A DNA stretch of 64,000 nucleotides from Lachnospiraceae bacterium (GTDB lineage: Bacteria > Bacillota > Clostridia > Lachnospirales > Lachnospiraceae), in assembly GCA_021199235.1 (NCBI GenBank), contig JAJQIL010000002.1, positions 1 to 64,000 of the forward strand, given 5' to 3'. The notes below the pieces were generated by a model. It made no database searches. It was not told where the DNA came from and was given only the letters and a program-made list of their open reading frames with translations. The position numbers and the translations under genes are program-made. This document shows, piece by piece, positions 5,626 through 53,877 of the stretch (position 1 is its first letter; the number at the start of each line of letters is the position of its first letter).

Positions 5626-5725
5626 ATATCTGTGATTGCAGCTGTGAAGGTACTGATATCTGTGATTGCAGCTGTGAAAGTACTGATATCTGTGATTGTA
5701 ACTGTGAAGGTACCTGAACAGTTAT
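5626..5725 (+). repeat. Three tandem 30-bp units ending in the 27-bp palindromic motif
   Basis: A 30-bp unit starting ATATCTGTGATTG repeats at 5626, 5656 and 5686. Each holds GCTGTGAAGG-TACTG or a close variant. The last copy runs into a complete dispersed motif (5698-5725) with arms GTAACTGT and ACAGTTAT, one base longer in the centre than the others. It ends 31 bp before metA. Confidence 0.85.
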
Positions 5726-5756
5726 CTGTGTTTTATATGAAGGAGGAAACAGACCG

Positions 5757-6740
5757 ATGCCGATTCGAGTACAGAGCGAGCTTCCGGCAAAAGAAATACT
5801 GGAAAGGGAAAATATATTTGTCATGGATGAAAACCGGGCGGTGCACCAGAATATCCGTCCGATCCATATCGCGATACTGAATCTGATGCCGCTGAAGGAA
5901 GAGACGGAGCTGCAGCTTCTGCGCTCCCTTTCCAATACGCCGCTGCAGGTCGAGGTGACGTTTGTAAAAGTGACCTCGCATGAGGCGAAAAATACTTCCA
6001 TGAGCCACCTGAATAAATTCTATGTGGAGTTTTCCGAGATCCGTGACCGGCGCTTTGACGGCATGATCATCACGGGCGCACCGGTGGAACTGATGGAATT
6101 TGAGGAGGTCGATTACTGGGATGAGCTGGTAGAGATCATGGACTGGACAAATATGCATGTGACATCGACGATCTACCTCTGCTGGGGAGCGCAGGCCGCG
6201 ATGTACCATTATTACGGGCTGCAGAAAAAGCTTCTCGATAAGAAAATGTTCGGTCTGTTCTGGCATCGCGTGAAAAACCGCAAGATTCCGCTGGTGCGCG
6301 GCTTTGACGATATGTTCCTCGCCCCGCACTCCCGCCACACGGAGGTGCCGATCGAGGAGATCCGTAAGGTGGAGGAGATCACGATCCTCGCGGAGTCGGA
6401 CGAGGCCGGCGTATTTCTGGCGATGGCGGACGGCGGCCGGCGCATTTTTGTCATGGGACATCCGGAGTATGACCGCGTGACGCTGGACGGCGAATATCAC
6501 CGCGACCTGGACAAGGGCCTGCCGATTGAAATTCCGAAGAATTATTATCGGGATGACGATTCGTCCGTGAAGCCGCTTCTGATGTGGCGGTCGCACGCGA
6601 ACAACCTCTATACGAACTGGCTGAATTATTATGTCTATCAGGCGACACCCTATGACCTCATGGGCACGCCGGACTTTGAGTATGTCTACAGCCAACTTGA
6701 TAAATGGAAGACGCCGAAAGACATACCGGAAATGCGATAG
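5757..6740 (+). CDS. metA: Homoserine O-acetyltransferase (MetA family)
   Basis: First committed step of methionine synthesis: acylates the hydroxyl of homoserine. The 327-residue product has the MetA-type glutamine-amidotransferase-like fold. Visible catalytic residues are Cys142 (LCWGAQAAMY), His235 and Glu237 (MGHPEYDR). Position 111 is Glu (ITGAPVELMEF). Work on the Bacillus cereus enzyme showed that Glu111 favours acetyl-CoA while Gly111 in E. coli favours succinyl-CoA, so the acetyl donor is predicted. AAGGAGG precedes the ATG. It stands alone behind the repeat block 5626-5725. No SAM riboswitch was recognised upstream. Confidence 0.93.
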   Translation: MPIRVQSELPAKEILERENIFVMDENRAVHQNIRPIHIAILNLMPLKEETELQLLRSLSNTPLQVEVTFVKVTSHEAKNTSMSHLNKFYVEFSEIRDRRFDGMIITGAPVELMEFEEVDYWDELVEIMDWTNMHVTSTIYLCWGAQAAMYHYYGLQKKLLDKKMFGLFWHRVKNRKIPLVRGFDDMFLAPHSRHTEVPIEEIRKVEEITILAESDEAGVFLAMADGGRRIFVMGHPEYDRVTLDGEYHRDLDKGLPIEIPKNYYRDDDSSVKPLLMWRSHANNLYTNWLNYYVYQATPYDLMGTPDFEYVYSQLDKWKTPKDIPEMR

Positions 6741-6801
6741 CATCGACCGGAACGGCAGCGGAAAAGCAATCAGTTGTATTATCATATCTTTATAATAAGC
6801 A

Positions 6802-6831
6802 TTGACAACTCACTTTATAATGAATTAGAAT
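6802..6831 (+). promoter_or_regulatory. purE promoter
   Basis: TTGACA (6802-6807), an 18-bp spacer and TAGAAT (6826-6831). The leader to purE is about 80 nt and contains a GC-rich potential stem (GGCAGC near 6838-6844 with GCTGCT near 6862-6868). I do not recognise a purine riboswitch. Confidence 0.75.
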
Positions 6832-6916
6832 CTATGCGGCAGCTGTTCGGGGGAGACCCTGCGGCTGCTGTGAAAAGGCAGAAAGCGATCTGCATAATAC
6901 GAAAGGAGCAGGGACG

Positions 6917-7417
6917 ATGGCAAAAGTAGGCATTGTGATGGGCAGCGATTCCGATATGCCGGTGATGAGCAAGGCAGCGGACATGCTGGAAAAGTTTGGG
7001 ATTGACTATGAGATGACGATCATATCGGCGCACAGGGAGCCGGATGTGTTTTTTGAATATGCGAAGACTGCGGAGGAGAAGGGCTTTAAGGTGATCATTG
7101 CCGGAGCGGGCATGGCGGCGCATCTGCCGGGCATGTGCGCGGCGATCTTTCCGATGCCGGTGATCGGGATTCCGATGCACACGACGTCATTGGGCGGCAG
7201 GGATTCCCTGTATTCAATCGTGCAGATGCCGACCGGTATTCCGGTGGCGACCGTGGCGATCAACGGCGGCGCGAACGCGGCAATTCTGGCGGCGAAGATC
7301 CTGGCGACCTCCGATCCGGAGCTCCTGCAGAAGGTGAAGGATTACGCGAAAGAGCTGGGAAGCCAGGTCGAGGCGAAAGATCAGCGGCTTCAGGAAGTCG
7401 GCTACAAAGCGTATTGA
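6917..7417 (+). CDS. purE: N5-carboxyaminoimidazole ribonucleotide mutase
   Basis: Moves the carboxyl group of N5-CAIR to carbon 4 in purine synthesis. The 166-residue length and the motifs GSDSDMPVM (about 9-17), SAHREP (about 37-42) and SLGGRDSLYSIVQMPTG fit class I PurE. The family usually reads SAHRTP, and the Thr-to-Glu change at that place is seen here. AAAGGAG lies before the ATG. purK was not found in the window. purM, purN and purD follow on the same strand, so this starts a purine gene group, with the 27-bp repeat in the gap to purM. Confidence 0.94.
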   Translation: MAKVGIVMGSDSDMPVMSKAADMLEKFGIDYEMTIISAHREPDVFFEYAKTAEEKGFKVIIAGAGMAAHLPGMCAAIFPMPVIGIPMHTTSLGGRDSLYSIVQMPTGIPVATVAINGGANAAILAAKILATSDPELLQKVKDYAKELGSQVEAKDQRLQEVGYKAY

Positions 7418-7452
7418 TCTATATGACTGTAAGTGACAGGACAGGAATACAC

Positions 7453-7479
7453 GTAACTGTTCAGTACCTTCACAGTTAC
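7453..7479 (-). repeat. 27-bp palindromic motif, purE-purM gap
   Basis: The cleanest copy: read on the minus strand, arms GTAACTGT and ACAGTTAC enclose the centre GAAGGTACTGA. It is extended by an outer AC/GT pair on each side. It is the only full copy in this orientation and lies 67 bp before purM. Confidence 0.85.
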
Positions 7480-7545
7480 GTACACTCATGATTTGAACGG
7501 CAAAAGGGGATGATACCCTGTATCATACACATAAGGAGAAAAATT

Positions 7546-8571
7546 ATGGATTACAAGAATGCAGGCGTAGACATTGAGGCCGGATACCGGTCCGTGGAGC
7601 TGATGAAAGAGCACATCAAAAAGACCATGCGGCCGGAGGTGCTGACGAATATCGGCGGATTTTCCGGAGCATTTTCGATGGACGCGATCAAAAAAATGGA
7701 GAAGCCGACACTGGTTTCCGGTACGGACGGTGTGGGGACGAAGCTGAAGCTGGCGTTTCTTCTGGATAAGCACGACACGATCGGCATTGACTGCGTGGCG
7801 ATGTGTGTGAACGATATCGCGTGCGCGGGCGGGGAGCCGCTGTTTTTCCTGGACTACATTGCCTGCGGCAAAAATTATCCGGAGAAGATTGCCGCGATCG
7901 TGAGCGGCGTGGCGGAAGGCTGCGCACAGGCCGGTGCGGCGCTGATCGGCGGCGAGACGGCGGAGCATCCGGGACTGATGCCGGAGGATGAGTACGATCT
8001 GGCCGGATTTGCGGTCGGCGTGGTTGATGAGAAGGACCTGATCACCGGCGCGGATGTGAAGGATGGAGATGTGATCCTCGGTATCGCGTCGTCCGGCGTT
8101 CACAGCAATGGCTTTTCGCTGGTGCGCAAGGTGTTCCCGATGGAGAAGGAAGCGCTGGAGACATACTATGACGAGCTGGGCGGCACGCTCGGCGAGACAC
8201 TTCTGACACCGACGAGGATCTACGTAAAAGCACTCCGCAGTGTGAAAGAGGCGGGTGTGCGCGTGAAAGCCTGCAGCCATATCACCGGCGGCGGCTTCTA
8301 TGAGAATGTGCCGCGGATGCTGCCGGAGGGCATGAAGGCGGTGATTCGCAAGGACAGCTATCCGGTGCCGGCAATTTTTGGCCTGCTGGCGAAAAAGGGT
8401 GAAATTGACGAGCATATGATGTATAATACCTATAACATGGGCATCGGCATGGCAGTCGCGGTCGACCCCGCAGATGCAGAAACGGCAAAGCGGGCGATGG
8501 AAGCGGCTGGCGAGACCGTCTATGAGATCGGCCATATTGAGGCCGGAGAAAAAGGAGTCGTATTATGCTGA
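7546..8571 (+). CDS. purM: Phosphoribosylformylglycinamidine cyclo-ligase (AIR synthetase)
   Basis: ATP-dependent ring closure of FGAM to AIR. The 341-residue product begins MDYKNAGVDIEAG and carries VSGTDGVGTKLKLA, the CVNDIACAGGEPLFFLDY segment and HSNGFSLVR of the AIRS fold, then HITGGGFYENVPR. AAGGAG lies just before the ATG at 7546, so the 12-codon upstream extension is not used. The stop overlaps the purN start by 7 bp, which indicates translational coupling. Confidence 0.95.
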   Translation: MDYKNAGVDIEAGYRSVELMKEHIKKTMRPEVLTNIGGFSGAFSMDAIKKMEKPTLVSGTDGVGTKLKLAFLLDKHDTIGIDCVAMCVNDIACAGGEPLFFLDYIACGKNYPEKIAAIVSGVAEGCAQAGAALIGGETAEHPGLMPEDEYDLAGFAVGVVDEKDLITGADVKDGDVILGIASSGVHSNGFSLVRKVFPMEKEALETYYDELGGTLGETLLTPTRIYVKALRSVKEAGVRVKACSHITGGGFYENVPRMLPEGMKAVIRKDSYPVPAIFGLLAKKGEIDEHMMYNTYNMGIGMAVAVDPADAETAKRAMEAAGETVYEIGHIEAGEKGVVLC

Positions 8572-9191
8572 AAGTCGCGGTGATGGTATCCGGAGGCGGC
8601 ACGAACCTGCAGGCGATCCTGGACGCGGTCGCGGACGGGAAGATTACAAACACCAAAATTGTGCGCGTCATCAGCAACAGCACGAAGGCCTATGCGCTGG
8701 AGCGCGCGAAAAAGGCCGGGATTCCCTCAGTCTGTATTACGAGGAAGCAGTATCCGGATCCGGAGGAGTTTGACCGGGCGCTGCTGGCGCTTCTGCAGGA
8801 ATCGGACGCGGATCTGGTCGTGCTGGCGGGATGCCTTGTCGTGATTCCGCAGTGTGTGGTGGACGCGTTCCCGAACCGCATCATCAATATCCATCCGGCA
8901 CTGATCCCATCCTTCTGCGGGACAGGCTATTACGGACTGAAGGTGCATGAGCAGGCGCTTGCCCGCGGCGTGAAGGTGACCGGGGCGACCGTCCATTTTG
9001 TCGACGGAGGCACGGACACCGGCCCGATCCTTTTACAGAAGGCGGTCGAGGTACAGCCGGGCGATACTCCGGAGATCCTGCAGCGCCGGGTGATGGAGCA
9101 GGCGGAGTGGATCCTTTTGCCGCAGGCGATCAATCTTATCGCGAACGGCCGGGTGCAGGTAAATGACGGCAGAGCAATCATTTTACAATAA
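8565..9191 (+). CDS. purN: Phosphoribosylglycinamide formyltransferase
   Basis: Transfers the formyl group from 10-formyl-THF to GAR. The 208-residue protein starts MLKVAVMVSGGGTNLQAI, the family N-terminus. Catalytic residues are Asn108 and His110 (NIHPALIPS) and Asp151 (GGTDTGPI). Its ATG lies inside the end of purM. The formyl donor is ultimately fed by GlyA, encoded at 52437. Confidence 0.95.
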   Translation: MLKVAVMVSGGGTNLQAILDAVADGKITNTKIVRVISNSTKAYALERAKKAGIPSVCITRKQYPDPEEFDRALLALLQESDADLVVLAGCLVVIPQCVVDAFPNRIINIHPALIPSFCGTGYYGLKVHEQALARGVKVTGATVHFVDGGTDTGPILLQKAVEVQPGDTPEILQRRVMEQAEWILLPQAINLIANGRVQVNDGRAIILQ

Positions 9192-9318
9192 CGTTTGCAG
9201 GCTGCATCCGGGATGATCAGAAGCAGTGTTTTGCATGAAATACAGATGCAGGGTATAACAGGAATCTGCTGGAAATGCAGCAGGATTTCAGATTCAGACA
9301 GCACATAAGGAGGGACCT

Positions 9319-10590
9319 ATGAAAGTATTGATCGTTGGCAGCGGCGGCAGAGAGCACGCGATCGCGTGGAAGGCGGCGCAGAGCCCGAAGGTGGACAAGA
9401 TCTACTGCGCGCCGGGCAACGCCGGGATTGAAGAATACGCGGAATGCGTGGCGATCGGCGCGATGGAATTCGACCGTCTGGCCGCGTTTGCAAAAGAAAA
9501 AGAGATCGATCTGACAGTGGTCGGCATGGACGACCCGCTGGTCGGCGGTATTGTCGATGTGTTTGAGGCACAGGGACTGCGCGTCTTCGGACCGAGAAAG
9601 AACGCGGCCATCCTCGAGGGCTCCAAGGCATTTTCCAAGGACCTGATGAAAAAATACAACATTCCGACAGCGGCGTATGAGAATTTTACCGACGCGGAAG
9701 CGGCGCTTCAATATCTGGAGACCGCGAAGATGCCGATCGTATTAAAAGCGGACGGTCTGGCGCTCGGCAAGGGCGTACTGATCTGCAATACGCTGGAAGA
9801 GGCGAAAGCCGGTGTGAAGGAGATCATGCAGGATAAGAAATTCGGCAGCGCCGGGAACTGCATGGTCATCGAGGAATTTATGACCGGTCGTGAGGTGTCG
9901 GTGCTGTCCTATGTGGATGGGAAAACGATCAAACCGATGACTTCCGCGCAGGATCACAAGCGCGCGGGCGACGGAGATACGGGCTTAAATACCGGAGGTA
10001 TGGGTACCTTCTCTCCGAGTCCGTTCTATACAAAAGAGATCGACGCGTTCTGTCAGGAAAAGATCTATCAGCCGACGGTGGACGCGATGGCGGCGGAAGG
10101 CCGGCCGTTCAAGGGCATTATTTTCTTCGGCCTGATGCTCACAGAGGACGGTCCGAAGGTGCTGGAGTATAATGCGCGTTTCGGCGATCCGGAGGCACAG
10201 GTGGTTCTGCCCCGCATGAAGACGGACATTATCGACGTTTTTGAGGCCTGCATCGACGGGACACTGGATCAGATCGATCTGGAATTTGAGGACAACGCCG
10301 CGGTATGCGTGGTGCTTGCTTCCGACGGCTACCCGGTTCATTATGAGAAGGGCATCCGTATCGACGGGCTGGAGAACTTTAAGGGGAAAGACGGCTACTA
10401 CGTGTTCCATGCGGGTACCGCGAAAAAGGACGGTGTGATCGTGACCAACGGAGGACGTGTGCTCGGTGTGACCGCGACCGGAGCCGATCTGAAGGCTGCG
10501 CGGGCCAATGCCTATGAGGCAGTGGACTGGATCACATTTTCCAATAAATACTACCGCCACGACATCGGCAAGGCAATCGACGAGGCATAG
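9319..10590 (+). CDS. purD: Phosphoribosylamine-glycine ligase
   Basis: Joins glycine to phosphoribosylamine with ATP. The 423-residue product has the usual length. It shows GSGGREHAIAWK (about 7-18), a central ATP-grasp domain (KADGLALGKGV; EYNARFGDPEAQ metal-binding strand) and a C-terminal domain ending in the YRHDIGKAI region. AAGGAGGG precedes the ATG. A 127-bp gap separates it from purN, and the cadherin-like membrane protein starts 24 bp after it. Confidence 0.95.
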   Translation: MKVLIVGSGGREHAIAWKAAQSPKVDKIYCAPGNAGIEEYAECVAIGAMEFDRLAAFAKEKEIDLTVVGMDDPLVGGIVDVFEAQGLRVFGPRKNAAILEGSKAFSKDLMKKYNIPTAAYENFTDAEAALQYLETAKMPIVLKADGLALGKGVLICNTLEEAKAGVKEIMQDKKFGSAGNCMVIEEFMTGREVSVLSYVDGKTIKPMTSAQDHKRAGDGDTGLNTGGMGTFSPSPFYTKEIDAFCQEKIYQPTVDAMAAEGRPFKGIIFFGLMLTEDGPKVLEYNARFGDPEAQVVLPRMKTDIIDVFEACIDGTLDQIDLEFEDNAAVCVVLASDGYPVHYEKGIRIDGLENFKGKDGYYVFHAGTAKKDGVIVTNGGRVLGVTATGADLKAARANAYEAVDWITFSNKYYRHDIGKAIDEA

Positions 10591-10614
10591 ATTTACAAAA
10601 GGAGAGTATAGATA

Positions 10615-11679: not shown

Positions 11680-11694
11680 TACAAGGGTGAAAAT

Positions 11695-19237: not shown

Positions 19238-19264
19238 GCTACTGTGAAAACACTGAACATATAC
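19238..19264 (+). repeat. 27-bp palindromic motif before the giant adhesin
   Basis: A diverged copy of exactly 27 bp: the blocks TGTGAA and TGAACA sit at the same positions as in the consensus copies, with weaker outer arms (GCTAC, TATAC). It lies 79 bp before the adhesin start. Confidence 0.6.
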
Positions 19265-33196: not shown

Positions 33197-33223
33197 GTAA
33201 CGATTAAGATACGGAACAGTTAC
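33197..33223 (+). repeat. 27-bp palindromic motif before the AAA gene
   Basis: 27 bp with arm GTAAC on the left and GGAACAGTTAC on the right, matching the consensus copies in length and at both ends. It lies 79 bp before the AAA-gene start. Confidence 0.7.
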
Positions 33224-33301
33224 AATGCAAAAATTTTTGCTGCCTCTGAAAAAGGTTTATAAAAAGTTTTTACAGCAGACGAAAAGATGGGAGAATGTCA
33301 G

Positions 33302-34214
33302 ATGGCTAAATCTTTTAATGTGAGCGGCACCTGTCTGCCGGACAGACATTATATGGTTGATCTGGGCTCCAGACTGGCTGCGGTTAAGAATATGGTTGAT
33401 GCGGGGGATTATTTTACTATCAATCGTGCAAGACAGTATGGTAAGACGACGATCCTGAATGCCCTGGCGGGTTACCTGAAGCCATATTATTCTGTAATCA
33501 GTCTGGACTTTCAGGGACTTTCTTATACTGATTTTGAGTCGGAAGACCGTTTTGTGTCAGCCGTATCCAGACAGATTTTACTGGTAGTGGAGGAGGAATT
33601 GTCTGCTGATGCGGAGCATGAATTGAGACAGTATGCGGACGACCCATCAGGCGGTGCGTCCCTTTCCAGGTTTTTTTCTCATTGACCGGTTTGTGCCGGA
33701 AATCTCAGAAGAATATCGTGCTTTTGATTGATGAGGTAGATTCTGCCTCGAATAATCAGGTCTTTCTTGATTTCCTGGCTCAGCTTCGCTTTTACTATTT
33801 GAAAAGACCGGGAGTAAAGACATTTCAGTCTGTTATTCTGGCCGGTGTATATGATATAAAGAATTTAAAACAGAAGATTCATCCGGAATCAGAATCCAGA
33901 TACAACAGTCCGTGGAATATTGCTGTGGATTTTACGGTTGATATGAGCTTTTCACCAAAAGATATTATTTCCATGCTTTCACAGTATGAAGCTGACTGGA
34001 ATACAGGGATGAATATGGACAGGATCAGTCAGCTGCTCTATGATTATACGATGGGGTATCCGTTTCTTGTTTCGAGACTGTGCCAGATCATGGCACGGAA
34101 TGTGACGGAATACAGTACAAGGGATGAAAAGAAAGAAAGCTGGGATGATGAAGCGTTTCAGAGAGCTGTACGGGAACTTTTAAGGACACCGAATACGCTT
34201 TTTGATGATATGAG
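33302..34214 (+). pseudogene. AAA-ATPase-like gene, 5' part: frameshifted and split by a transposon
   Basis: Encodes the front of a protein of the AAA-ATPase-like/PD-(D/E)XK nuclease family common in gut clostridia. The first frame reads from MAKSFNVSGTCLPDRHYMVDL through the P-loop region RQYGKTTILNAL and stops after LSRFFSH. The second frame resumes at once with LTGLCRKSQKNIVLLIDEVDSA (Walker B). The switch lies in a run of seven Ts (33671-33677): five or eight would restore the frame. The reading continues to NTLFDDMS and is then broken by the element starting at 34215. The 3' remainder is at 38065-38408. GGGAGA precedes the ATG. Confidence 0.88.
34208..34214 (+). repeat. Target-site duplication, left copy (ATATGAG)
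   Basis: ATATGAG stands directly before the element and again at 38065-38071 directly after it. A shared next base T makes an 8-bp reading possible. Confidence 0.85.
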
Positions 34215-34252
34215 TGTTGTTGCTAAACTCAAATGACCAGAAATAGATTTGC

Positions 34253-34281
34253 TTGACTGTCCCTGATTTGCTCTATATACT
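34253..34281 (+). promoter_or_regulatory. Transposon promoter near the left end
   Basis: TTGACT (34253-34258), a 17-bp spacer and TATACT (34276-34281). Downstream, ATCCCAGGG (about 34304-34313) pairs with CCCTGGGAT (about 34332-34340), a hairpin just before the first gene that could limit its expression. Confidence 0.7.
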
Positions 34282-34357
34282 GTCATTTAGTATATAGAAA
34301 GGAATCCCAGGGTACCCTCCTGCCAGATCGTCCCCTGGGATCGTGGTTCTTACAACC

Positions 34358-34900
34358 ATGGTCATTTTAACAGAATATCGTATTGAATGCAATGATGAAG
34401 AAGAGAAAATTTTTGTGATAATCAGTCTGGCTGTATCTTATTGTCCCATATGTGGTGAACCTCTTGGTTATAGAGATACCTGCATACGGTATCTGTTAAG
34501 AGAAGGCGGTGAAAGAGAGACTTACATTATACCCAGGGGCAAATGTGGTAAATGTGGTACGATCTACAGGATGCTCCCGGATATCGCAGCTCCTTATAAA
34601 CAGTACGCGGCTGAGGTTATATCTGGTGTGTTGGATGAAGTTATCCAGCCAGAGGATGAAGATTCTGCTGATTATCCGTGTGAAGTGACCATGCAGAGAT
34701 GGCATCACTGGTTAATGGCTAATGAACTCAGGATCGATGGTTATCTGAAATCAACCGGGCACCGCATTCTGGGCTTCAGCGAAGAATTCCTGATGTCTGA
34801 TATTTCCCTGCTCAGACAACTGCGCAACAGTTGCCCCGCATGGTTGGAGACAATCCTCAGATTTATATACAACTCAGGTGGTTTTTTGGTCCCTGCCTGA
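34358..34900 (+). CDS. DUF6431 protein of the transposon
   Basis: A 180-residue protein, likely zinc-binding: CPICGEPLGYRDTC near the N-terminus and CGKCG after a short strand give four to five cysteines. The rest is helical (IAAPYKQYAAEVISGVL, EVTMQRWHHWLM) and resembles a DNA-binding accessory to the transposase. I chose the ATG at 34358. A GTG at 34343 is also possible. No good ribosome site is seen and a hairpin sits just upstream. The family name is from memory of such three-gene elements. Its role in transposition is unknown. Confidence 0.7.
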   Translation: MVILTEYRIECNDEEEKIFVIISLAVSYCPICGEPLGYRDTCIRYLLREGGERETYIIPRGKCGKCGTIYRMLPDIAAPYKQYAAEVISGVLDEVIQPEDEDSADYPCEVTMQRWHHWLMANELRIDGYLKSTGHRILGFSEEFLMSDISLLRQLRNSCPAWLETILRFIYNSGGFLVPA

Positions 34901-34988
34901 GGACCAGTTTTTGCACTGACTTTGTTTTGTTGTCCTCCGGGGGATGTGTTAGTCTGTTCCCATCAACCAAAAGAAGGAGGAACAGACT

Positions 34989-36398
34989 TTGGAAACAAAA
35001 GAAACCAGCAGCTGGCAGGATGACACTGCCCTGGAACGTTTTAAGCTTATTTCCCCATTGCTGGATGAAAGCCTGGATGAGGCAAAGCTGATTGCCCTGC
35101 GGAAAGAAATCTCAAGCCAGAACGAGATCTCCGTCAGGAGCCTGCGCCGGTATGAATCTTACTACAGGGAAAGTGGTTTTTCAGGACTGAGACCGAAGAA
35201 CCGGGCACAGAGGCGTTCACAGAAGCTCCCAGATAACTTTGACGAGCTTGTAGCGGAAGCAATCCAGCTTAAGCGGGAAGTGCCGGAGCGTTCTGTGTCA
35301 CAGATCATCTACATTCTGGAACTGGAAGGGCGAGTGGAACCCGGCAGGCTGAAGCGTTCCACCATGCAGAGGCATCTTTATAAGGCCGGGTTCGGTGAAC
35401 GCCAGATGCAGATGTACAAGGACGCGAGGAAAAGTTCTTCGAAGCGTTTTTGTAAGCCGAACCGGATGATGCTTGTACAGGCAGACATTAAATATGGCCC
35501 GAAACTCCCTATTGGAAAAAAAGGTGCAATGGTGCAGACTTACCTGTCATCGGTCATGGATGACCACTCCCGGTATATCCTGCAGGCGCAGTTTTACGAT
35601 AATCAGGAAGAAACCATCGTGGAGGATACATTCCGCAAGGCAATCCTCAAGCATGGGAAATTTGATTCCGGGTATTGCGATCACGGAAGCCAGTATATTT
35701 CGAAACAGTTAAAATTATCCTTGTCGAAGCTTGGCATAAATGTAAAATATGCACCTGTTAGAAATGGGGCTGCCAAAGGAAAAATCGAAAAATATCATCA
35801 GATCGTAGACGGATTTACTGCGGAGGCAAAGGCGCATAAAATCCGGACACTGGAGGAACTGAACCGGTATTGGGAAATCTATCTGGAGGAGTACTATCAC
35901 AACAAGCCCCATGACGGCATCCGTGAGTATTATGAAAGCACCGGGAACCCGGTGCCTGAAAAGGGCATTTCACCGCAGCAGGAATGGAACCGGGATACCA
36001 GACCGCTGACATTTCTTGATGCGTCTGTAGTTGCGGAAGCATTCCTGCACCATGAACAGCGCCTTGTGGACAAAGGAGCATGTATCAGTTTTAAGGGGAA
36101 AAAATATGAAACGAAGCCGTCGCTGATTGGATGTAAAGTAGAAATTTCTTACGATCCCGCATCACCGGAAACCATCACGGTCAGCTATGCCGGAATGGAG
36201 CCGTTCACTGCAGAACCTGTGAAGATTGGATCTTACTGTTCCAGGAAACCGGCTATCCCTGCTTCGATGCAGGAAACGGAAGTGGAATCCTCCCGGTTTC
36301 TTACGGCATTGGAGAAAAAGCATGAAAAGAGCAGGGAGCACTACGCGAATGCGATCTCCTTTGGGGCATACAGGAAGGACGGTGACGGTCATGTATAA
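34989..36398 (+). CDS. DDE-type transposase (TniA/Mu-type integrase core)
   Basis: The 469-residue enzyme that cuts and joins the element ends. N-terminal helix-turn-helix region (about 20-60: ISVRSLRRYESYYRESGFSG) and a second DNA-binding segment (about 85-115) lead into an rve core. The acidic triad is visible as VQADIKYG, YCDHGSQYIS and KGKIEKYH. A Mu-C-like beta-barrel follows (ISFKGKKYETKP). The start is TTG with AAGGAGGA 8 nt upstream. The end overlaps the ExeA-type gene by 8 bp, which suggests coupled translation of transposase and ATPase. Confidence 0.9.
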   Translation: METKETSSWQDDTALERFKLISPLLDESLDEAKLIALRKEISSQNEISVRSLRRYESYYRESGFSGLRPKNRAQRRSQKLPDNFDELVAEAIQLKREVPERSVSQIIYILELEGRVEPGRLKRSTMQRHLYKAGFGERQMQMYKDARKSSSKRFCKPNRMMLVQADIKYGPKLPIGKKGAMVQTYLSSVMDDHSRYILQAQFYDNQEETIVEDTFRKAILKHGKFDSGYCDHGSQYISKQLKLSLSKLGINVKYAPVRNGAAKGKIEKYHQIVDGFTAEAKAHKIRTLEELNRYWEIYLEEYYHNKPHDGIREYYESTGNPVPEKGISPQQEWNRDTRPLTFLDASVVAEAFLHHEQRLVDKGACISFKGKKYETKPSLIGCKVEISYDPASPETITVSYAGMEPFTAEPVKIGSYCSRKPAIPASMQETEVESSRFLTALEKKHEKSREHYANAISFGAYRKDGDGHV

Positions 36399-37203
36399 AG
36401 CTTTTTATGAAATGAAACGTCTCCCATTTGTCAGAAATGTGCCGATAAATGAGCTTTATGAATCACCTGCTATGGCAGACGCATTGGGGCGCCTTACTTA
36501 CGGGGCAGATAATCAGCTGTTCGTTGTTGTCACAGCTGATTCAGGATGCGGAAAATCCACGCTTATGCGTCGCTTTTCAGAATCGCTTCCAAAAGACGAT
36601 TACATAGTCCTTTACGTATCAGATTCAAAGCTGACACCAAGGGGGCTTTATAAGGGGATGCTTGGACAGCTCGGGCTGGAGGCGAAATATTACCGCGGGG
36701 AAGCGAAAAGGCAGCTGCAGAAAGAAGTTGAAGTGCTCCGTGGTGTCCAGAAGAAAAAGGTTGTATGTATTCTGGACGAAGCCCATCTGCTTGAGAAAGA
36801 AACAATAGAGGAATTTCGGTTTCTCCTGAATTTCAAGTTTGATTCTGTAAGCCCCTTGTCGCTTGTTCTTGCCGGGCAGTCAGAACTATGGGATAAGCTC
36901 CGGCTGAAGCGCTATGCAGCAGTACGGCAGAGGATTGATCTGAACTGCATCCTCCCCCATTTGGACAGAGCAGAAACAGAGCGGTATGTAATGTCTCATT
37001 TAAAGTATGCTGATGGAAAGCAGGAGATCTTCACAGACAAAGCCTATGACGCGATCTATAAGGAATCCACAGGCATCGAACGGAGGATCAACCGTATCTG
37101 CGAGAAATGCCTGATGTATGGCTGTCAGCAGGGGAAGCGTCTGATTGATGAGCACGTAGTGCAGTATGTCATTGAACACGAGATGCTGGGAGGTGATGTC
37201 TGA
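36391..37203 (+). CDS. ExeA/TniB-type AAA ATPase of the transposon
   Basis: A 270-residue ATPase, probably the target-choosing partner of the transposase. Walker A is ADSGCGKSTLMRRF (about 50-63) and Walker B VVCILDEAHLL (about 125-135). Sensor segments (VLAGQSELWDKLRL, AAVRQRIDLNCILP) are those of the ExeA/TniB group. The ATG at 36391 (MYKAFYEMKRLPF) gives the family N-terminus. The longer frame to 36226 lies inside the transposase gene and is rejected. The stop overlaps the next start (TGATG). Confidence 0.9.
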   Translation: MYKAFYEMKRLPFVRNVPINELYESPAMADALGRLTYGADNQLFVVVTADSGCGKSTLMRRFSESLPKDDYIVLYVSDSKLTPRGLYKGMLGQLGLEAKYYRGEAKRQLQKEVEVLRGVQKKKVVCILDEAHLLEKETIEEFRFLLNFKFDSVSPLSLVLAGQSELWDKLRLKRYAAVRQRIDLNCILPHLDRAETERYVMSHLKYADGKQEIFTDKAYDAIYKESTGIERRINRICEKCLMYGCQQGKRLIDEHVVQYVIEHEMLGGDV

Positions 37204-37556
37204 TGAAGACAGATAAAGAACGCCGCAGACTCCTGCATGATTCGCTCTGGGAACTGCTGTTTAAATATGCGGCTCTGCGTGACGAGCTGTCCGAAATACT
37301 GCTATCATTCCAATTGATGTACGAAGATATCCAGAATTCCATGGAAGGGATACAGTCTGAAATGGATGATCTGGAAGAACATCTTGAAACATGTGGTTTG
37401 GAACTGCAAGGATTTCATGTGCGAAGCGGATTCTGGGATCCTCTCGACGTGATCGTACAGAACGAACAGACCGGAAATACTAAAGCTAAAATTTGGGATG
37501 GTTCAGAAAACGTGGAAATGTTCGATGAATTTGATGATGAACTTCCATTCGATTGA
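37203..37556 (+). CDS. Small acidic transposon gene (unknown)
   Basis: A 117-residue acidic protein, mainly helical in its first half (MKTDKERRRLLHDSLWELL, then a coiled-coil-like stretch rich in E, D and L at about 35-70), ending in a D/E/F-rich tail (EFDDELPFD). GGAGGTGA lies before the ATG, which overlaps the stop of the ExeA-type gene. No family recognised. Translational coupling suggests it works with the transposition genes or is cargo that shares their transcript. Confidence 0.6.
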   Translation: MKTDKERRRLLHDSLWELLFKYAALRDELSEILLSFQLMYEDIQNSMEGIQSEMDDLEEHLETCGLELQGFHVRSGFWDPLDVIVQNEQTGNTKAKIWDGSENVEMFDEFDDELPFD

Positions 37557-37598
37557 AGAGGCTTTAGCAGATATTTGAACAGCAGGAGGAAAACAGAG

Positions 37599-37916
37599 AT
37601 GAGATTTATTTGTAAAAATGCAGGTGCGGAACAGCCTGAGGGACGCTTCTGGGAAGGCAGGACCGAAAGCATAAAGAGGAACGGCGAAGGATTTGAAGCG
37701 GATGTTTTTGGAAGAGGCAGCCATATGCACATCATTGTCGGGAAATATGTGAGTGGTAATTATGTCTGCATCCCGGGGTGGGGAGTTGGAAGCCCATTGG
37801 CAGCGCTGGATGACAGATTTTGGAACAAGGAACAGTTATCAAGGCATCTCGGTGAGATAGATGCAATAACCTTATCGGAAGCATTATGTGCAATAAAGAA
37901 AGCGGAACTTGCTTAA
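37599..37916 (+). CDS. Small protein near the transposon right end (unknown)
   Basis: A 105-residue protein starting MRFICKNAGAEQPEG with AGGAGG 9 nt upstream. Conserved-looking segments are EADVFGRGSHMHIIVGKYVSGNYVCIPGW and LDDRFWNKEQLS. Similar small proteins, which I recall as possibly DUF6618, occur on mobile elements of Clostridia. No known motif. It is probably cargo. A hairpin GGGGTGG/CCACCCC (37957-37978) follows and may end the transcript. Confidence 0.6.
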   Translation: MRFICKNAGAEQPEGRFWEGRTESIKRNGEGFEADVFGRGSHMHIIVGKYVSGNYVCIPGWGVGSPLAALDDRFWNKEQLSRHLGEIDAITLSEALCAIKKAELA

Positions 37917-38064
37917 AATAGTGTATCGGTTTTTGAGCAGAACAACAAACAATCACGGGGTGGTATTTTCCACCCCAAATGTATAGATACAAGTGACAGC
38001 TTTCTTGGCAAATGAGGGTCAAAATATCAAAGCTATAGACGGTCAAGAGAGCCGAGCATTAACA

Positions 38065-38408
38065 ATATGAGTAAGAAGCTCGCGGACTATCCGAAATTGA
38101 AAGAGATGATTTATGGCATTCTGTTTCAGGGCAGAAAATATTCCTATGAAGCGGAAAATGATAAAATCCGAATAGGAGAAATGTTTGGCTTTTTGAAGGA
38201 AAAGGACGGGACAGTATGTGTTTCTAACCGGATTTTTGAGATGAAGCTTTATAATCTGTATCTTTCTGAGGAAGAGACAGATACCAAAATGTTTACGACT
38301 GCAGAGATGGAGAAAAATCAGTTTGTTGTGGGCGGCCGCCTTCAGATGGATCTGGTTCTGAAAAAATTCTGCGAGTATTTTGAAGAAATATTGCGCTCTG
38401 CGCATTAA
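38065..38408 (+). pseudogene. AAA-ATPase-like gene, 3' part after the transposon
   Basis: Begins with the right target duplication. The first codons MSKKLADYPKLKEMIYGILF continue the sequence broken at 34214. The fragment ends FCEYFEEILRSAH at 38408. The ATG at 38067 is the methionine of the host gene inside the duplication, not a real start, and no ribosome site precedes it. A perfect bidirectional terminator follows. Confidence 0.88.
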
Positions 38409-48495: not shown

Positions 48496-49141
48496 GGGCG
48501 CGTCCGTCTATAAAAAGGAATATCCGATCATACGGCCGAGCATCCTGAAAGAACTGATACATGCCAGCACGGTGAGCAATCTGGCTTTTCGCGTGGGTGA
48601 GGAGATGAGTTTTTCCAGGGAAGACTGCCATGAGCTTGCAGTTGCAGGTTTTGTGCATGATATCGGCAAGCTTGAGCTGGCAAAATATGTCCGCGGTCAT
48701 GAGGAGGAGACTCTGGTCATCGAAGAGATGAAATATGTCCGCCGACATTCCGCTTTAGGCGCGGAGATCCTTTTGAAAAACGGGTATTCACAGAAGATCG
48801 TGGACATGGTAAGATTTCATCATGAAAACTGTGACGGTACCGGTTATCCGATGAATCTTTCCCGGGAAGAGATTCCGATTGGCGCGCGGATCCTGCGCGT
48901 ATGCGATGTTTTTGCGGCACTGACCTCTGACCGCCCGTACCGCAGGGCGTTTGATGTGGATACGGCGGTAGAGCTGATGATCGAGGAATCAAAGAATTAC
49001 GATATCGAGGTATTTCTGGCATTCATGCGGGTGGTCCATGCACCCGGGCTGGAACAGCTGCTGGATACAAAAGATCTGGAGAATAAGCTGACCCGGATCA
49101 TGCGGGAAAGTGATCCGGAACTCATGGATTTTGATGCTTGA
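48488..49141 (+). CDS. HD-GYP domain phosphohydrolase
   Basis: A 217-residue stand-alone HD-GYP protein. The metal residues are visible as HDIGK (His57, Asp58), RRHSALGAEIL and HHENCDGTGYP, where the GYP triplet (119-121) marks the c-di-GMP phosphodiesterase group. RILRVCDVFAALTSDRPYR completes the signature. No sensory domain is attached. The start overlaps hemZ. The last 20 codons are partly duplicated downstream (49112-49173). Activity on c-di-GMP is inferred from the family. Confidence 0.88.
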   Translation: MSEGASVYKKEYPIIRPSILKELIHASTVSNLAFRVGEEMSFSREDCHELAVAGFVHDIGKLELAKYVRGHEEETLVIEEMKYVRRHSALGAEILLKNGYSQKIVDMVRFHHENCDGTGYPMNLSREEIPIGARILRVCDVFAALTSDRPYRRAFDVDTAVELMIEESKNYDIEVFLAFMRVVHAPGLEQLLDTKDLENKLTRIMRESDPELMDFDA

Positions 49142-49175
49142 AAAGCGAACCGGAACTCATGGAGTTCGATGAATA
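49112..49175 (+). repeat. 35-bp duplication at the 3' end of the HD-GYP gene
   Basis: GATCCGGAACTCATGGATTT at 49112 recurs as GAACCGGAACTCATGGAGTT at 49147, a 35-bp period that spans the stop codon. This parallels the radA end. Confidence 0.75.
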
Positions 49176-49290
49176 AACAAGACTGAACAGCAGATAATCT
49201 TGAAATAAGTCGGCCGCAATTCCATTGTCTTTAAACAAAGGGACGTTCAATTCAGGCAAAAAATGCCTGACAATATGAGGAGGAAACGCA

Positions 49291-50535
49291 ATGATTACAC
49301 AGGCACCGAGAGGCGTACAGGACTGGTATGGAGAGGAGATGCGCAAACGCGCGTATGTGGAGAAGCTTGCCCGCGAGACCGCGCGCTGCTATCATATGGA
49401 GGAGATCATTACTCCGATTTTTGAACACACAGAACTGTTCCAGCGCGGCGTCGGTTCCGACACCGATGTGGTGCAAAAAGAGATGTATACGTTTTTGGAT
49501 AAGGGAGACCGGAGCATCACACTGAAGCCGGAAGGCACGGCCGGTGTCATGCGTGCCTATCTGGAGCATGCCATGTACTCGCAGCCGGCTCCGACGAAGC
49601 TTTTTTATGTCACACCTGCCTTTCGTTATGAAAAGCCCCAGAAGGGCAGGCTGCGCCAGCATCATCAGTTCGGCGTGGAGATGGTCGGTTCGGCAAGCCC
49701 GCTCGCGGAGCTGGAAGTGATTTCTTTCGTGACAGAGCTTCTCGGCAAATTCGGGCTGAAGGATGTCCGACTGCATATCAACAGCATCGGCTGTAAGAAC
49801 TGCCGCAAAGCGTACAATGAAGCGCTGCTGTCTTATCTGAAAAAATATGAGAACGACCTCTGTCCGACCTGCCGGGAGCGCATGGAGAAAAATCCGCTGC
49901 GTGTCCTGGACTGCAAGGCAGACACCTGTAAAAAGATTGTTGCAGACGCACCGAGGACTATTGATTATCTGGACGACGGCTGCAGAGAGCATTTTGAAGA
50001 GCTCAAATCGCTGCTGGACGATCTGGCGATACCTTATGAAATCGATACGGGGATCGTCCGCGGTCTGGATTATTATACAAAAACTGTGTTCGAGTTTGTC
50101 AACTCCGACGGGTTTACTCTCTGCGGGGGCGGCCGCTATGACGGCCTGATCCACGAGATCGAGGAGAAACAGGACATCCCGTCTGTCGGCTTTGGTATGG
50201 GAATCGAACGCATCCTGTATTTCATGGACAACGAGGGCGTTGCATTCCCGGCAGAAGAGCCGGCAGATCTGTACGTCGGAATACTCGGAAAAGAGGCCCG
50301 CGCACGCGCCTATCAGCTGGTGCGCGCCTTACGTGCTTCCGGCCGGATCGTCGAGACCGACTACATGGACCGCAGTGTCAAGGCGCAGATGAAATATGCA
50401 AACAAGCTCGGGGCGAAAAAGGTCGTGATCATCGGTTCACAGGAGCTGGAGCAGAACCGCGCGATGCTGAAGGACATGGCGACGGGAGAGCAGACGGAGG
50501 TCGCGCTCGACCGCATCGCAGAGACACTGGCATAA
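49291..50535 (+). CDS. hisS: Histidyl-tRNA synthetase
   Basis: Charges tRNA-His. The 414-residue class II enzyme starts [12 protein letters not shown]. Motif 2 is [20 protein letters not shown], the histidine-specific loop [12 protein letters not shown] and motif 3 [10 protein letters not shown]. The C-terminal anticodon-binding domain begins near [20 protein letters not shown] precedes the ATG. I looked for a T-box leader in the 149-bp gap and found no AGGGTGGNACCGCG element. aspS does not follow, unlike in many Firmicutes. Confidence 0.96.
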
Positions 50536-50544
50536 TACTGACAT

Positions 50545-50597
50545 AATAAAACGGCATCCGTCCCCATAAGCAGACAGCAGGCGGATGCCCATTTTAT
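50545..50597. terminator. Bidirectional terminator between hisS and the DUF1294 gene
   Basis: AATAAAAC-GGCATCCG (50545-50560) pairs with CGGATGCC-CATTTTATT (50582-50598), suited to the convergent genes. Confidence 0.85.
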
Positions 50598-50608
50598 TGC
50601 GCGCACAA

Positions 50609-51934
50609 TTATTCTGTCGGCGTTACCTCCTGCGCAGCATCCTCGTTTGTGGAAGAGAATGCCTCGATGGCCTCGTTCATGTTCCCCATCAGCGCGTCTG
50701 TGAAGTCGGAATTGAAGTAGACCTCCCACGTGGAGCCATTGTTGGAAAAGGTGAGGGTGACATCTGTAGAGACCGTGGAAGTGTTTTCCTGCAGAGCTTC
50801 CAGAAGCATCCGCGAGGTCTCGTTTGAGAAGGTGACTGAGCTGTCGCGGATGGACTGGGTCGTAGAGGCGTATGCAAGAAGAGATTCTCTGTAGGCGGTA
50901 AGTACGCTGGTCATATCTACGCTGGTGACGCGGACGACTGCCTCAGCCTGATCCCCGTCTTCGGTGCACCGCAGGATTTCATAGTCAAATGCGTCCGTCA
51001 GCTGGCGGACGTATTCTTCGTCTATCAGAGAATAATATTCAGTATTGTAAGTGGCAAATACGTCTTCAATGTCCAGATATTCCATCCAGTCATCCGCGTT
51101 CAGATCGAGAAGCGCATCCAGATGAATGGCAAGCACTTCGGAAGCGGATAAAATATAGGGATCGTTCATGCAGGAGATAAAGCCTCCGACCAGATCATCC
51201 TCCAGTTCCGAGTCTGACTGAATCGTCCAGGAATTATTTTCCCTTTTTAAATGAAAAACCGCCGTGCTGACGACGATATTATAGTTGTTGGAAGAGAGCG
51301 TATCGCGCAGCAGACGGTAATAGTCCCCGGTCGTCGTCTCTTCCTCATCGTCCGGATAGATTTCAACGGAATTTTTCAGGATTTCGGTACAGAGATCCCT
51401 GGCAAGCTCTTTTGCGTCAATATTAGAAATCTGCACGGTGACGGCTGCTTCATCACCGATAATCTCTTCATTATGTATGCTGTATGTGAAATTTTCGAAG
51501 AAAAGGTCAACGGCTTCCGTCGCGTCGGTACTGATTTCACCGGTGGCCAGGTTGGAATTCATCAGACTTTCATAAGAGACAAAGGAAGTGATCGTGGCTT
51601 CGTCCAGCTCCTGAATCAGGGAGAGCTCCTGCTGGACAGCCTGTGTGGGGCGTGCCATCTCCTGTTTGTTCCAGAGATAGACCCCTGTGACGAGGAGCAG
51701 CTGGATGACAAAGATAAACGGTATTCCGATGGAAAACTTCAGTTTTCTGGTCTTATGATGAAACACATACATCCCGGTAAAGATTCCGATGCTTCCAAAC
51801 AGGATCGCGGCAATGAAAAGCGTACGCTCCGGGATCCGTTGCTTTCCGCGTTGTGCTCTGAGTTTATCTGTCCCCATCAGGATCAGACTGACCAGATTGA
51901 TCATTATAATATAGAAGATCAGGATACTTTTCAT
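50609..51934 (-). CDS. DUF1294 membrane domain fused to a large extracellular region
   Basis: A 441-residue protein. The N-terminal 90 residues are a DUF1294 domain with three membrane helices and the signature KLRAQRGKQRIPERTLF then HKTRKLKFSIGIP. An exported domain of about 350 residues follows, containing two NTF2-like or lipoprotein-like repeats (about 105-245: LDEATITSFVSYESLM, EAVDLFFENFTYSI; about 280-430). DUF1294 alone is usually about 90 residues, so this is a fusion. GGAGGTAGAA lies before the ATG at 51934. The longer frame to 51985 is rejected. The function is unknown. Confidence 0.78.
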   Translation of the reverse strand: MKSILIFYIIMINLVSLILMGTDKLRAQRGKQRIPERTLFIAAILFGSIGIFTGMYVFHHKTRKLKFSIGIPFIFVIQLLLVTGVYLWNKQEMARPTQAVQQELSLIQELDEATITSFVSYESLMNSNLATGEISTDATEAVDLFFENFTYSIHNEEIIGDEAAVTVQISNIDAKELARDLCTEILKNSVEIYPDDEEETTTGDYYRLLRDTLSSNNYNIVVSTAVFHLKRENNSWTIQSDSELEDDLVGGFISCMNDPYILSASEVLAIHLDALLDLNADDWMEYLDIEDVFATYNTEYYSLIDEEYVRQLTDAFDYEILRCTEDGDQAEAVVRVTSVDMTSVLTAYRESLLAYASTTQSIRDSSVTFSNETSRMLLEALQENTSTVSTDVTLTFSNNGSTWEVYFNSDFTDALMGNMNEAIEAFSSTNEDAAQEVTPTE

Positions 51935-51969
51935 TTCTACCTCCGTCAATAAGTGCCCAGTCGAAATTG

Positions 51970-51998
51970 ATTTTACATGATTCAAATGCGTTTGTCAA
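51970..51998 (-). promoter_or_regulatory. Promoter of the DUF1294 fusion gene
   Basis: Minus-strand TTGACA (51993-51998), 17 bp, TAAAAT (51970-51975), 36 bp before the start. Confidence 0.8.
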
Positions 51999-52119
51999 AC
52001 ATTGATTTTAAAAGAGCCTTCATTCATACCGTATTTGACAGAAATAGACAAAATTCGAGTTTTCAAAATAAAGGACTGACCGTTCCGGACGGACATTTGA
52101 AAAAACAGGACGAACAGTC

Positions 52120-52148
52120 TTGACTTTTTGCAGAATGCAAAGTATGAT
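52120..52148 (+). promoter_or_regulatory. glyA promoter
   Basis: TTGACT (52120-52125), 17 bp, TATGAT (52143-52148). It leaves a leader of about 280 nt that contains the composite repeat element 52202-52335. Confidence 0.75.
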
Positions 52149-52201
52149 ATCCGAGGTGTGAAAATACCGAAAATTTTCCGGTCAGTATGTGAAGTTTTGC
52201 T

Positions 52202-52335
52202 GTAACTATTCAGGACAGTACCTCGCACCTGCTGCGAGGTACGTATGAAAATGTATATTTTACAGGAAAAAGTCCCATCGCGCAGCGATTTTAAATGGAC
52301 TTTTTCCCGTAATTGTGAAGGTACTGAACAGTTAG
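52202..52335 (+). repeat. 134-bp composite palindromic element in the glyA leader
   Basis: The ends GTAACTATTCAG (52202-52213) and CTGAACAGTTAG (52324-52335) are inverted. Inside are a perfect stem GTACCTCGCA/TGCGAGGTAC (52218-52242) and a stem GGAAAAAGTCC/GGACTTTTTCC (52265-52307) with a nested ATCGC/GCGAT. The right end is itself a 27-bp motif copy (52309-52335). The second stem with its T run could act as an attenuator. Confidence 0.75.
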
Positions 52336-52436
52336 GTTTTGCTAATATGGTGCTTCTGATCAGGCATTATGAGACAGACATTACGGAATACTGCCGGATA
52401 TCACATGATAAGGAACAAGATTAAGGAGAGAACAGA

Positions 52437-53675
52437 ATGTATTCACTGGATGAGGTACGGCGCGTGGACAGCGAGATCGCTGACGCGATTGTCGCCGAGC
52501 AGGAAAGACAGAACAGCCATATCGAGCTGATCGCTTCTGAAAACTGGGTTTCCAAGGCTGTGATGGCTGCCATGGGAAGCCCGCTTACAAATAAATATGC
52601 GGAAGGATATCCCGGCAAACGCTATTATGGCGGATGTGAGTGTGTGGATGTCGTGGAGAATCTGGCGAGAGACCGCGCGATGGAGCTGTTTGGATGTACG
52701 TATGCGAATGTTCAGCCGCATTCCGGCGCTCAGGCGAATATGGCTGTTTTTTTTGCCCTGCTGAAGCCGGGCGATAAAGTGATGGGCATGAATCTTTCCC
52801 AGGGCGGACATCTTTCTCACGGAAGCCCGGCCAACTTTTCCGGTGCTTACTTCGATGTCACTCCTTATGGTGTGAACGATGATGGATTTATTGATTATGA
52901 CGAGGTCAGAAGGATTGCTCTGGAATGCCGTCCGAAGATGATCGTCGCGGGCGCGAGCGCTTATGCGCGCACGATTGATTTTAAACGTTTTCGTGAGATC
53001 GCGGATGAGGTTGGAGCTTATCTTATGGTGGATATCGCGCATATTGCCGGACTTGTGGCGGCAGGTGTGCATCCGAGCCCGATCCCGTACGCGCATGTTA
53101 CAACGACCACGACGCACAAGACTCTGCGTGGACCGCGCGGCGGACTGATCCTTTCCGATGCGGAATTTGCGAAAAAGGCGAACTTTAATAAAGCGATTTT
53201 CCCGGGCGTCCAGGGAGGCCCGCTGATGCATGTGATCGCGGTGAAAGCGGTCTGCTTCAAGGAAGCACTGCAGCCGGAATTCAAAGAATACCAGCAGAAT
53301 GTCGCGAAGAACGCGAAAGCGCTTTGCGCAGGCCTGATGAACCGCGGCATCCGGATCGTCTCCGGCGGCACGGACAATCATCTGATGCTGGTCGATCTGA
53401 CGAGCGTCGGCAGGACAGGCAAGGAGGTCGAGAACCTTCTGGATTCCGTGAATATCACCTGCAACAAGAATACGATTCCGAACGATCCGCAGTCTGCGTT
53501 TGTGACGAGCGGCGTACGTCTTGGCACACCGGCTGTGACTTCCCGCGGCATGAATGAGCAGGATATGGACGTTATTGCGGAAGCGATCGCCTGCATGCTG
53601 AATGCGGAGCCGGGCTGTGAGGAGAAGGCGCGCTCTCTGGTGAAGTCTCTGACAGACAAATATCCGCTGGTGTAA
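52437..53675 (+). CDS. glyA: Serine hydroxymethyltransferase
   Basis: PLP enzyme that converts serine and THF to glycine and methylene-THF, the source of one-carbon units for purines and methionine. The 412-residue product shows [27 protein letters not shown], the PLP lysine Lys228 in [15 protein letters not shown], and [30 protein letters not shown] precedes the ATG. The leader carries the composite palindromic element. I saw no glycine or THF riboswitch. Confidence 0.96.
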
Positions 53676-53712
53676 AGTGCAGAACGAATATACAGGATAA
53701 AGATTCATAAGG

Positions 53713-53745
53713 CTGCCGCCGGTTAATTACCGACGGCAGTTTTCC
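53713..53745 (+). terminator. glyA terminator
   Basis: CTGCCG-CGGT pairs with ACCG-CGGCAG around TAATT, followed by TTTTCC. Confidence 0.85.
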
Positions 53746-53850
53746 TGTGAATATTTGATGAAGTTCAGCAAGAATTAAGAAAATTAGAATGTTATTTCGA
53801 TTTGGATGTGCTATAGTTATGGGCAGAGAAATCGGGAAACAGAATCAATC

Positions 53851-53877
53851 GTAACTGCGGACGTATAGAACAGTTAC
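53851..53877 (+). repeat. 27-bp palindromic motif before the first adaptor gene
   Basis: 27 bp with left arm GTAACTGC and right arm GAACAGTTAC, with a diverged centre (GGACGTATA). It lies 31 bp before the start at 53908. Confidence 0.75.

Follow-up and report, generated by a model that had tools for sequence, protein, structure and literature searches.

A 64,000-nucleotide stretch of a Lachnospiraceae bacterium genome (assembly GCA_021199235.1, contig JAJQIL010000002.1, positions 1 to 64,000; hereafter the window) raises the question of why one 27-bp palindromic motif stands before several unrelated genes, among them metA, purM and glyA. The first-pass annotation of this sequence offered two answers: a site bound by a regulator dimer, or a mobile repeat resembling the repetitive extragenic palindromic (REP) elements. 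We find that the motif is most likely a mobile repeat of another kind. It is very probably a member of a Lachnospiraceae family of miniature inverted-repeat transposable elements (MITEs), non-autonomous DNA transposons, with GTAAC tips, 8-bp target duplications, forms that reach down to 27 bp and a transposase supplied in trans.

Copies were searched for with the pattern GTAACTGT-N11-ACAGTTAC, allowing up to three mismatches in the arms. A whole-genome search of this sort had been suggested as a check, and it confirms a large dispersed family: the bacterium's own genome (3.47 Mb) holds 269 copies, against 14 matches to the reversed pattern, and 148 against 0 when at most one arm mismatch is allowed. 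Solo 27-mers flanked flush by 8-bp direct repeats were seen across 445 kb of this genome. A count over all DNA retrieved from the own and other genomes used 412 distinct 27-mers with up to four mismatches, orthologous copies with different flanks being counted apart. An exact 8-bp direct repeat is flush with 32 of these, compared with 0.05 in shuffled sequence, while exact flush repeats of 4, 5, 6, 7, 9, 10, 11 and 12 bp number 2, 0, 1, 3, 0, 0, 0 and 0, respectively. With one mismatch tolerated, the 8-bp repeat flanks 67 of the 412 (0.85 shuffled). The targets show a preference for G and then A at their first two positions.

Related genomes preserve such sites in their empty state. The flanks of 160 copies, from stretches of the own genome and of its relatives G013, G007 and G010, were placed in the other genomes, and an empty site was called clean when both flanks meet with an overlap of exactly 8 bases (gap -8), so that the element is missing and a single copy of the target remains. 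Clean empty counterparts in a relative exist for six solo loci (own C89:68235 and C89:72004, L029:1810, L029:17199, G007_C34:91844 and G013_C18:101572), and for three loci with longer, composite elements (G013_C4:112622, which equals G007_C34:48446; G013_C90:5573; and G013_C90:10683). The clearest is L029:17199, where the own genome reads CAGAAATT-27-mer-CAGAAATT and G013 has a single CAGAAATT, the displayed flanks (38 bp on the left and 25 bp on the right) being identical. The window also holds one such site: positions 1444 to 1451 are the empty target GTTTATGT, at which G013 and G007 carry a 134-bp element between two GTTTATGT copies (the G013_C4:112622 locus). Among the 81 site-genome pairs, 37 fell into the class "other", few of which were resolved. 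Excluded were two pairs falsely read as "same" (C83:72240 to G010 and L033:15680 to G013, both unrelated sequence), a doubtful gap -10 site (G007_C31:9590), and C83:72240 against G013, where only one of two placements gives a gap of -8. Because it has diverged (gap -19), the empty glyA site of G013 is left outside the clean set as well.

The copy before glyA turned out to be one end of a larger repeat, which the first-pass annotation had overlooked. The glyA region, searched against the genus, recovered a 134-bp repeat that is present many times in the own and related genomes. In the window this composite occupies 52202 to 52335 on the plus strand, with a left end GTAACTATTCAG, internal hairpins and a right end CTGAACAGTTAG formed by the 27-mer (52309 to 52335, plus strand), and GTTTTGCT flanks it on both sides, matching at 8/8 positions (52194 to 52201 and 52336 to 52343). 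Family members start with GTAACTGTTCAG or GTAACTATTCAG and end with CTGAACAGTTAC, forming terminal inverted repeats tipped with GTAAC; the 27-bp form is an outer end fused to an inner end, GTAACTGTGAAGGTACTGAACAGTTAC. The forms make a size series of 27, ~50, 61, 69-79, 132-143, 174 and up to ~237 bp, and none of them has coding capacity. Elements that share these ends but are longer, and whose target repeats agree at 7/8 positions or better, range from 49 to 237 bp, mostly 132-143 bp, in lists that include a few nested, orthologous and chance-like entries. Among target-repeat elements of the genus sample, 27 bp is the commonest single length (34 of 85). The 61-bp form amplifies as such: genome G267 has five closely similar 61-/62-bp forms with five different target repeats (8, 7, 6, 8 and 8 of 8 positions matching), and the short form has therefore multiplied in its own right. 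The 50-bp form probably does so too.

The internal hairpins of the composites covary. When 31 aligned copies of 133-136 bp are folded into four helices, 98.8% of cells are paired (95.2% in shuffles), changes on both sides of a helix occur in 58 cells (17.6 in shuffles), and structures slid along the alignment pair in only 29-42% of cells. Seven base pairs show double changes, a number reached by 66 of 500 shuffles, and the independent events are few because the hairpin changes follow subfamilies. Covariation of this kind indicates that the hairpins are kept, although it does not tell the reason for keeping them. No Rfam family matches the window at the gathering score.

Two further observations concern the sequence of the ends. 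At L170:1919-2019 lies a related element of 101 bp, bounded by GTTACTGTTCACAC / GAGTGAACAGTAAC and flanked by an 8-bp repeat without mismatch, which suggests that related families with other ends may exist. In G267, a private GTGAC variant of the inner arm is amplified in 50-, 61- and 133-bp forms (loci L326-L355).

The family is widespread and patchy. Within the genus, 21 of 47 genomes carry copies at no more than one arm mismatch, from 1 to 220 each, and the others carry 0; the reversed control gives 1 in each of two genomes and 0 in the rest. In a sample of the family, 20 of 299 genomes (the own genome included) have at least one copy at this threshold, with 0 for the reversed control. Among GTDB genomes, at least 113 stretches contain the exact 27-mer. 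The 80 matches listed are labeled Lachnospiraceae, Clostridiales, Clostridia, Eubacteriales, "bacterium" or with genus names, the last including Oliverpabstia intestinalis, Murimonas intestini, Blautia wexlerae, B. schinkii, B. parvula, Catenibacillus scindens, Roseburia sp. and Eubacterium sp. The exact 27-mer has 0 matches in IMG/VR, and the composite has none in the plasmid collection. Two human faecal phage records (MT837311.1 and MT839789.1) match about 73 bp of the composite (query positions 71-141) at 81%.

The repeat shares with MITEs its terminal inverted repeats, target duplications of constant length, precise empty sites, lack of coding capacity and high copy number. Known MITEs usually have a minimum length well above 27 bp; the shortest form lies below it, which departs from a habit of known MITEs rather than from their definition. 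Nearest in size are the small dispersed repeats (SDRs) of cyanobacteria, which, in a description credited to Elhai in 2008, are reportedly 21-27 bp long. Our comparison with SDRs draws on mentions in other papers: they might be mobile (PMC2884548), they are mentioned again in PMC3116915, and SDR5 is inserted inside HIP1 sites (PMC4390886); none of these mentions includes an 8-bp duplication. The present repeat differs from SDRs, as these mentions portray them, by its 8-bp duplications, its empty sites and its series of longer relatives. MITEAba12 (PMC6382973) is 111-114 bp long, makes 9-bp duplications and resides together with its parent ISAba12. It is likewise short, with terminal inverted repeats, a target duplication of constant length and many copies; our repeat differs from this account in forms that reach 27 bp, an 8-bp duplication and the lack of a parent among the sequences searched. 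In the literature, no description of the repeat was found by sequence strings or, judging by titles and the openings of abstracts, by topic; only a 12-base string matched, in papers whose titles suggest primers.

Could the motif instead be the operator of a regulator that controls genes of one-carbon and methionine metabolism, in line with the first of the two answers? Its arms are palindromic, and the copies do lie near metA, purM and glyA, whose identities we confirmed. The copy before metA (5698 to 5725, plus strand) is, as had been claimed, a 28-bp variant, here a solo unit with flanks CTGTGATT / CTGTGTTT that agree at 7/8 positions. The relative G007 has, at G007_C34, a 22-bp palindrome before metA, ATAACTGT-GTTTAT-ACAGTTAT, 39 bp from the start, with arms similar to those of the repeat, a 6-bp centre and no clear target repeat; it may be a decayed or separate copy. 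An operator would be expected to persist, however, and conservation before the same genes did not hold. The gaps before purM and glyA lack a copy in both G013 and G007, and that before metA lacks one in G013. The purM copy is a solo unit of exact consensus on the minus strand (7453 to 7479), with an unclear target repeat (5/8). With 269 copies spread over the whole genome and exact target duplications around some of them, a regulator site for these genes is now very improbable.

REP or REPIN elements moved by a REP-associated tyrosine transposase (RAYT, of the Y1 type) are no more credible as an account of the family. The passages of PMC3116915 and PMC3733652 describe extragenic palindromes of 20-40 bp in high copy number, and our repeat is likewise short, palindromic, extragenic and present in hundreds of copies. 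It differs from them, as described there, by its target duplication, its GTAAC tips and the lack of a link to a Y1 transposase. The tags GTAG and CGTC, named in the title of PMC3733652, are missing, the element starting with GTAAC. Furthermore, PF01797 finds no match in five genomes of the genus that have 21-51 copies (G008, G010, G014, G016 and G020), and conversely several genomes that bear PF01797 have no copies. Of the original alternative, the mobile repeat thus stands, and its REP-like character falls by these tests.

The other copies claimed in the window fared unevenly. The pattern finds five matches there at up to three arm mismatches, compared with 0.06 expected from shuffles. Four are among the copies reported at first, with 0 (7453 to 7479), 1 (53851 to 53877), 2 (33197 to 33223) and 2 (52309 to 52335) arm mismatches, so the shared 27-bp motif is borne out for these. 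It is not for 19238 to 19264, which has about seven differences from the 27-mer (counted by eye) and lies outside the set. The fifth match, at 38258, has 3 arm mismatches, differs at 12/27 positions and falls inside an open reading frame (38067 to 38408); it is probably due to chance. The plus-strand units at 33197 to 33223, within a strain-specific island, and at 53851 to 53877 each differ from the 27-mer at five positions and have no clear target repeat, and are therefore decayed at best, probably solo units. The latter, before an adaptor gene, has a variant at the same place in G013 and none in G007. Also overlooked at first were two decayed 30-bp tandem units at 5630 to 5689 (plus strand), which adjoin the metA copy and on direct reading consist of the element without its right arm, plus flank.

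Several observations weigh against the transposon family as we propose it. A majority of the 27-mers (345 of 412) lack an 8-bp repeat flush with their ends at one mismatch or fewer; this group mixes, unsorted, decayed copies with 27-mers that form the right end of a longer element and have their left repeat at a greater distance. Within 8-kb spans of the 1.70 Mb sampled, no autonomous element was found that shares the family's ends and has an 8-bp repeat. The own genome (G000) yields no hit to PF03050 (IS66), and an intact IS66 in genome G148 has other ends, its right end reading GTAAACGTCAAACC. An element of 27 bp is too short for the usual pairing of both ends. Finally, young copies (a perfect repeat and at most one mismatch) are already biased 26:7 toward the sense orientation, which plain neutral insertion does not predict.

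Candidates for the mobiliser were examined and set aside. Two spans longer than 3 kb have a 7/8 target repeat but poor ends, and were taken as chance rather than as long autonomous copies. IS66 elements have GTAA tips and 8-bp duplications, as does the repeat; the inner end sequence of the repeat is unlike that of the G148 IS66, the family is absent from the own genome, and the ends elsewhere do not match where readable. No matching end pair occurs in the other IS66 loci fetched, many of which are fragments or cut. A transposase module with rve and AAA genes at about 34.2-38.0 kb of the window is found in 12 of 47 genomes and is absent from G007, which has 173 copies of the repeat; neither this distribution nor the module's candidate ends TGTCCCTGATTTGC agree with a mobiliser of the repeat. 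We infer that the elements would be moved in trans by a transposase of the DDE type.

How the solo 27-mers arise is a further question, on which two readings divide. In one, the 27-bp unit is itself mobile: the transposase would use the inner GTAAC and the outer GTTAC as ends 27 bp apart, and solos would spread as solos. In the other, solos are trimmed composites, in which deletion between GTAACT direct repeats (one in the left end and one in the inner arm) would leave an exact 27-mer with its target duplication in place. We consider trimming to fall just short of an even chance, and a mobile 27-mer to be slightly below that. Young loci, with clean empty sites, comprise 6 solos and 3 composites, and the cleanly read shared loci comprise 9 solo/solo, 5 composite/composite and 1 mixed, so that size is kept at 14 of 15, as a mobile solo predicts; the two lists overlap at C4:112622 (empty in the own genome, present in G013 and G007) and at own 72004 (a young solo and also the mixed locus). 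The same figures tell against trimming, for which mixed loci are just 1 of 15 and the solo share is no higher in shared than in young loci. The one mixed locus is what trimming would leave: own C89:72004 has 27 bp, G007 has 85 bp at the same target, and G013 is empty; the 85-bp form (gap -10) was counted solely here. The amplification of the 61-bp form, and probably of the 50-bp form, favors short elements that move as such. So does an A13 variant, which in the genus sample is carried by 6 of 42 solos close to the consensus but by 0 of 44 composites (Fisher P = 0.011), although just 1 of these 6 solos has a target repeat of at least 7/8, and in other genera 2 composites and 1 solo carry A13.

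When all their lengths are pooled, composites are more numerous than solos. For target repeats that match at 7/8 positions or more, the ratio of solos to composites is 34:43 in the genus sample, and outside the genus composites predominate further, which counts against a mobile 27-mer (23:58 in the named genomes, 5:32 in G148, 4:27 in G267 and 0:5 in G270, the G267 and G270 sites being a chosen part of their copies). Solos with a target repeat of at least 7 positions also diverge more from the consensus than composites (a mean of 1.29 against 0.49 mismatches). DDE transposases bind about 20 bp at each end, which is hard to fit on 27 bp. In favor of trimming, the GTAACT direct repeats do exist in composites, and the 27-mer would be their exact product. 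Among G267 composites with a repeat of at least 7/8, the inner arm reads GTGAC in 26 of 27, yet 2 of the 4 solos start with GTAAC, as expected if the crossover fell in the left end; a solo lineage of independent descent would explain this equally well, and the four starts (GTAAC twice, ATAAC and GTGAT) are compatible with both models. The more specific proposal, that the 27-bp unit is a transposon reduced to two fused ends, moving as 27-bp DNA with an 8-bp duplication and forming its own lineage beside the longer forms, we advance tentatively, as rather less than an even prospect.

The position of copies relative to genes had been taken to favor a role in expression. Genes were called with a simple home-made caller (1127 genes in 1.70 Mb, with short genes missed). 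Of the 160 copies, 2 are inside coding sequence, 3 have no neighbor in the stretch, and 155 are intergenic, in 119 tandem, 22 divergent and 14 convergent gaps, a use of gap types near the null (0.757 tandem, 0.171 divergent and 0.072 convergent). In the 89 tandem gaps of at most 400 bp, copies are depleted at 0-20 bp before starts (5 against 19.4 expected) and enriched at 20-60 bp (46 against 25.7). A position bias therefore exists, but it is mixed, and the early remark that copies always precede a plus-strand start carries little weight, since the simple caller puts 40 of 43 window genes on that strand. Members of a MITE family would land in AT-rich intergenic DNA with an 8-bp target duplication, and selection would remove insertions that hit genes or ribosome-binding sites. 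AT-rich-gap insertion with loss of harmful insertions would explain most of the position bias; it does not account for orientation.

Copies lie along the direction of transcription in 94 of 119 tandem cases and against it in 25 (P ~ 1e-10). The own genome alone gives 21 of 30, and G148, a single 3.59-Mb contig with 75 copies, gives 40 of 53. Copies in G148 also agree with the leading strand in 55 of 75 cases with the terminus at 1.65 Mb, or in 53 of 75 with it nearer 1.73 Mb, where the GC skew switches. Transcription and replication are inseparable as causes, because G148 has just three head-on tandem cases and fork direction in the genus is guessed from gene direction. A role at the transcript level, with hairpins in 5' untranslated regions or operon gaps and positive selection of sense insertions, might account for the bias: beside the overall orientation, copies in guessed head-on genes of the genus sample lie 11:2 along transcription, G148 gives 40:13, the 20-60 bp interval is enriched and the hairpins covary. 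We nevertheless regard such a role as unlikely. Close relatives differ strongly in copy number and show empty sites, the bias is as strong in young copies (26:7) as in old ones, which is also compatible with an insertion bias, exact-consensus solos are unbiased (7:6; 7 of 13), and head-on cases in G148 are only three. As MITE insertions, the majority of copies are probably neutral or have a mild effect on the transcript that contains them.

The strain-specific island noted above spans 16700 to 38400 of the window and includes the sites before the adhesin and AAA genes, so neither site aligns with the corresponding place in the two relatives, where G013 has about 15 kb of different sequence and G007 about 0.3 kb. 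It encodes a signal peptidase, a 2779-aa LPXTG surface protein, a pilin backbone, a sortase and a SpaA-domain protein, that is, a sortase pilus cluster. The AAA-like gene at 33287 to 34236 may be split by a frame change into two open reading frames (33287 to 33685 and 33682 to 34236) and is possibly a pseudogene. The mobile module at 34215 to 38021 comprises a DUF6431 protein, an rve/Mu-C transposase, a TniB-like ATPase and a DUF6618 protein, and is 99.5% identical over the whole 3681-bp locus fetched from G013; its candidate ends TGTCCCTGATTTGC/TGACCCTCATTTGC are one of several weak pairs.

If the 27-mer moves as such, it would be among the smallest DNA transposons, bearing on the lower size limit for DNA transposition, and it would transpose without pairing two well-separated ends, a challenge to the end-pairing view. 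If solos are instead trimmed remnants, MITEs would become hundreds of tiny palindromes that resemble regulator sites. Such palindromes matter for motif finding in gut Lachnospiraceae, since exact copies of the 27-mer are present in Blautia, Oliverpabstia, Murimonas and others. The sense-strand bias, in turn, offers a testable link of transcription with insertion or selection in these genomes.

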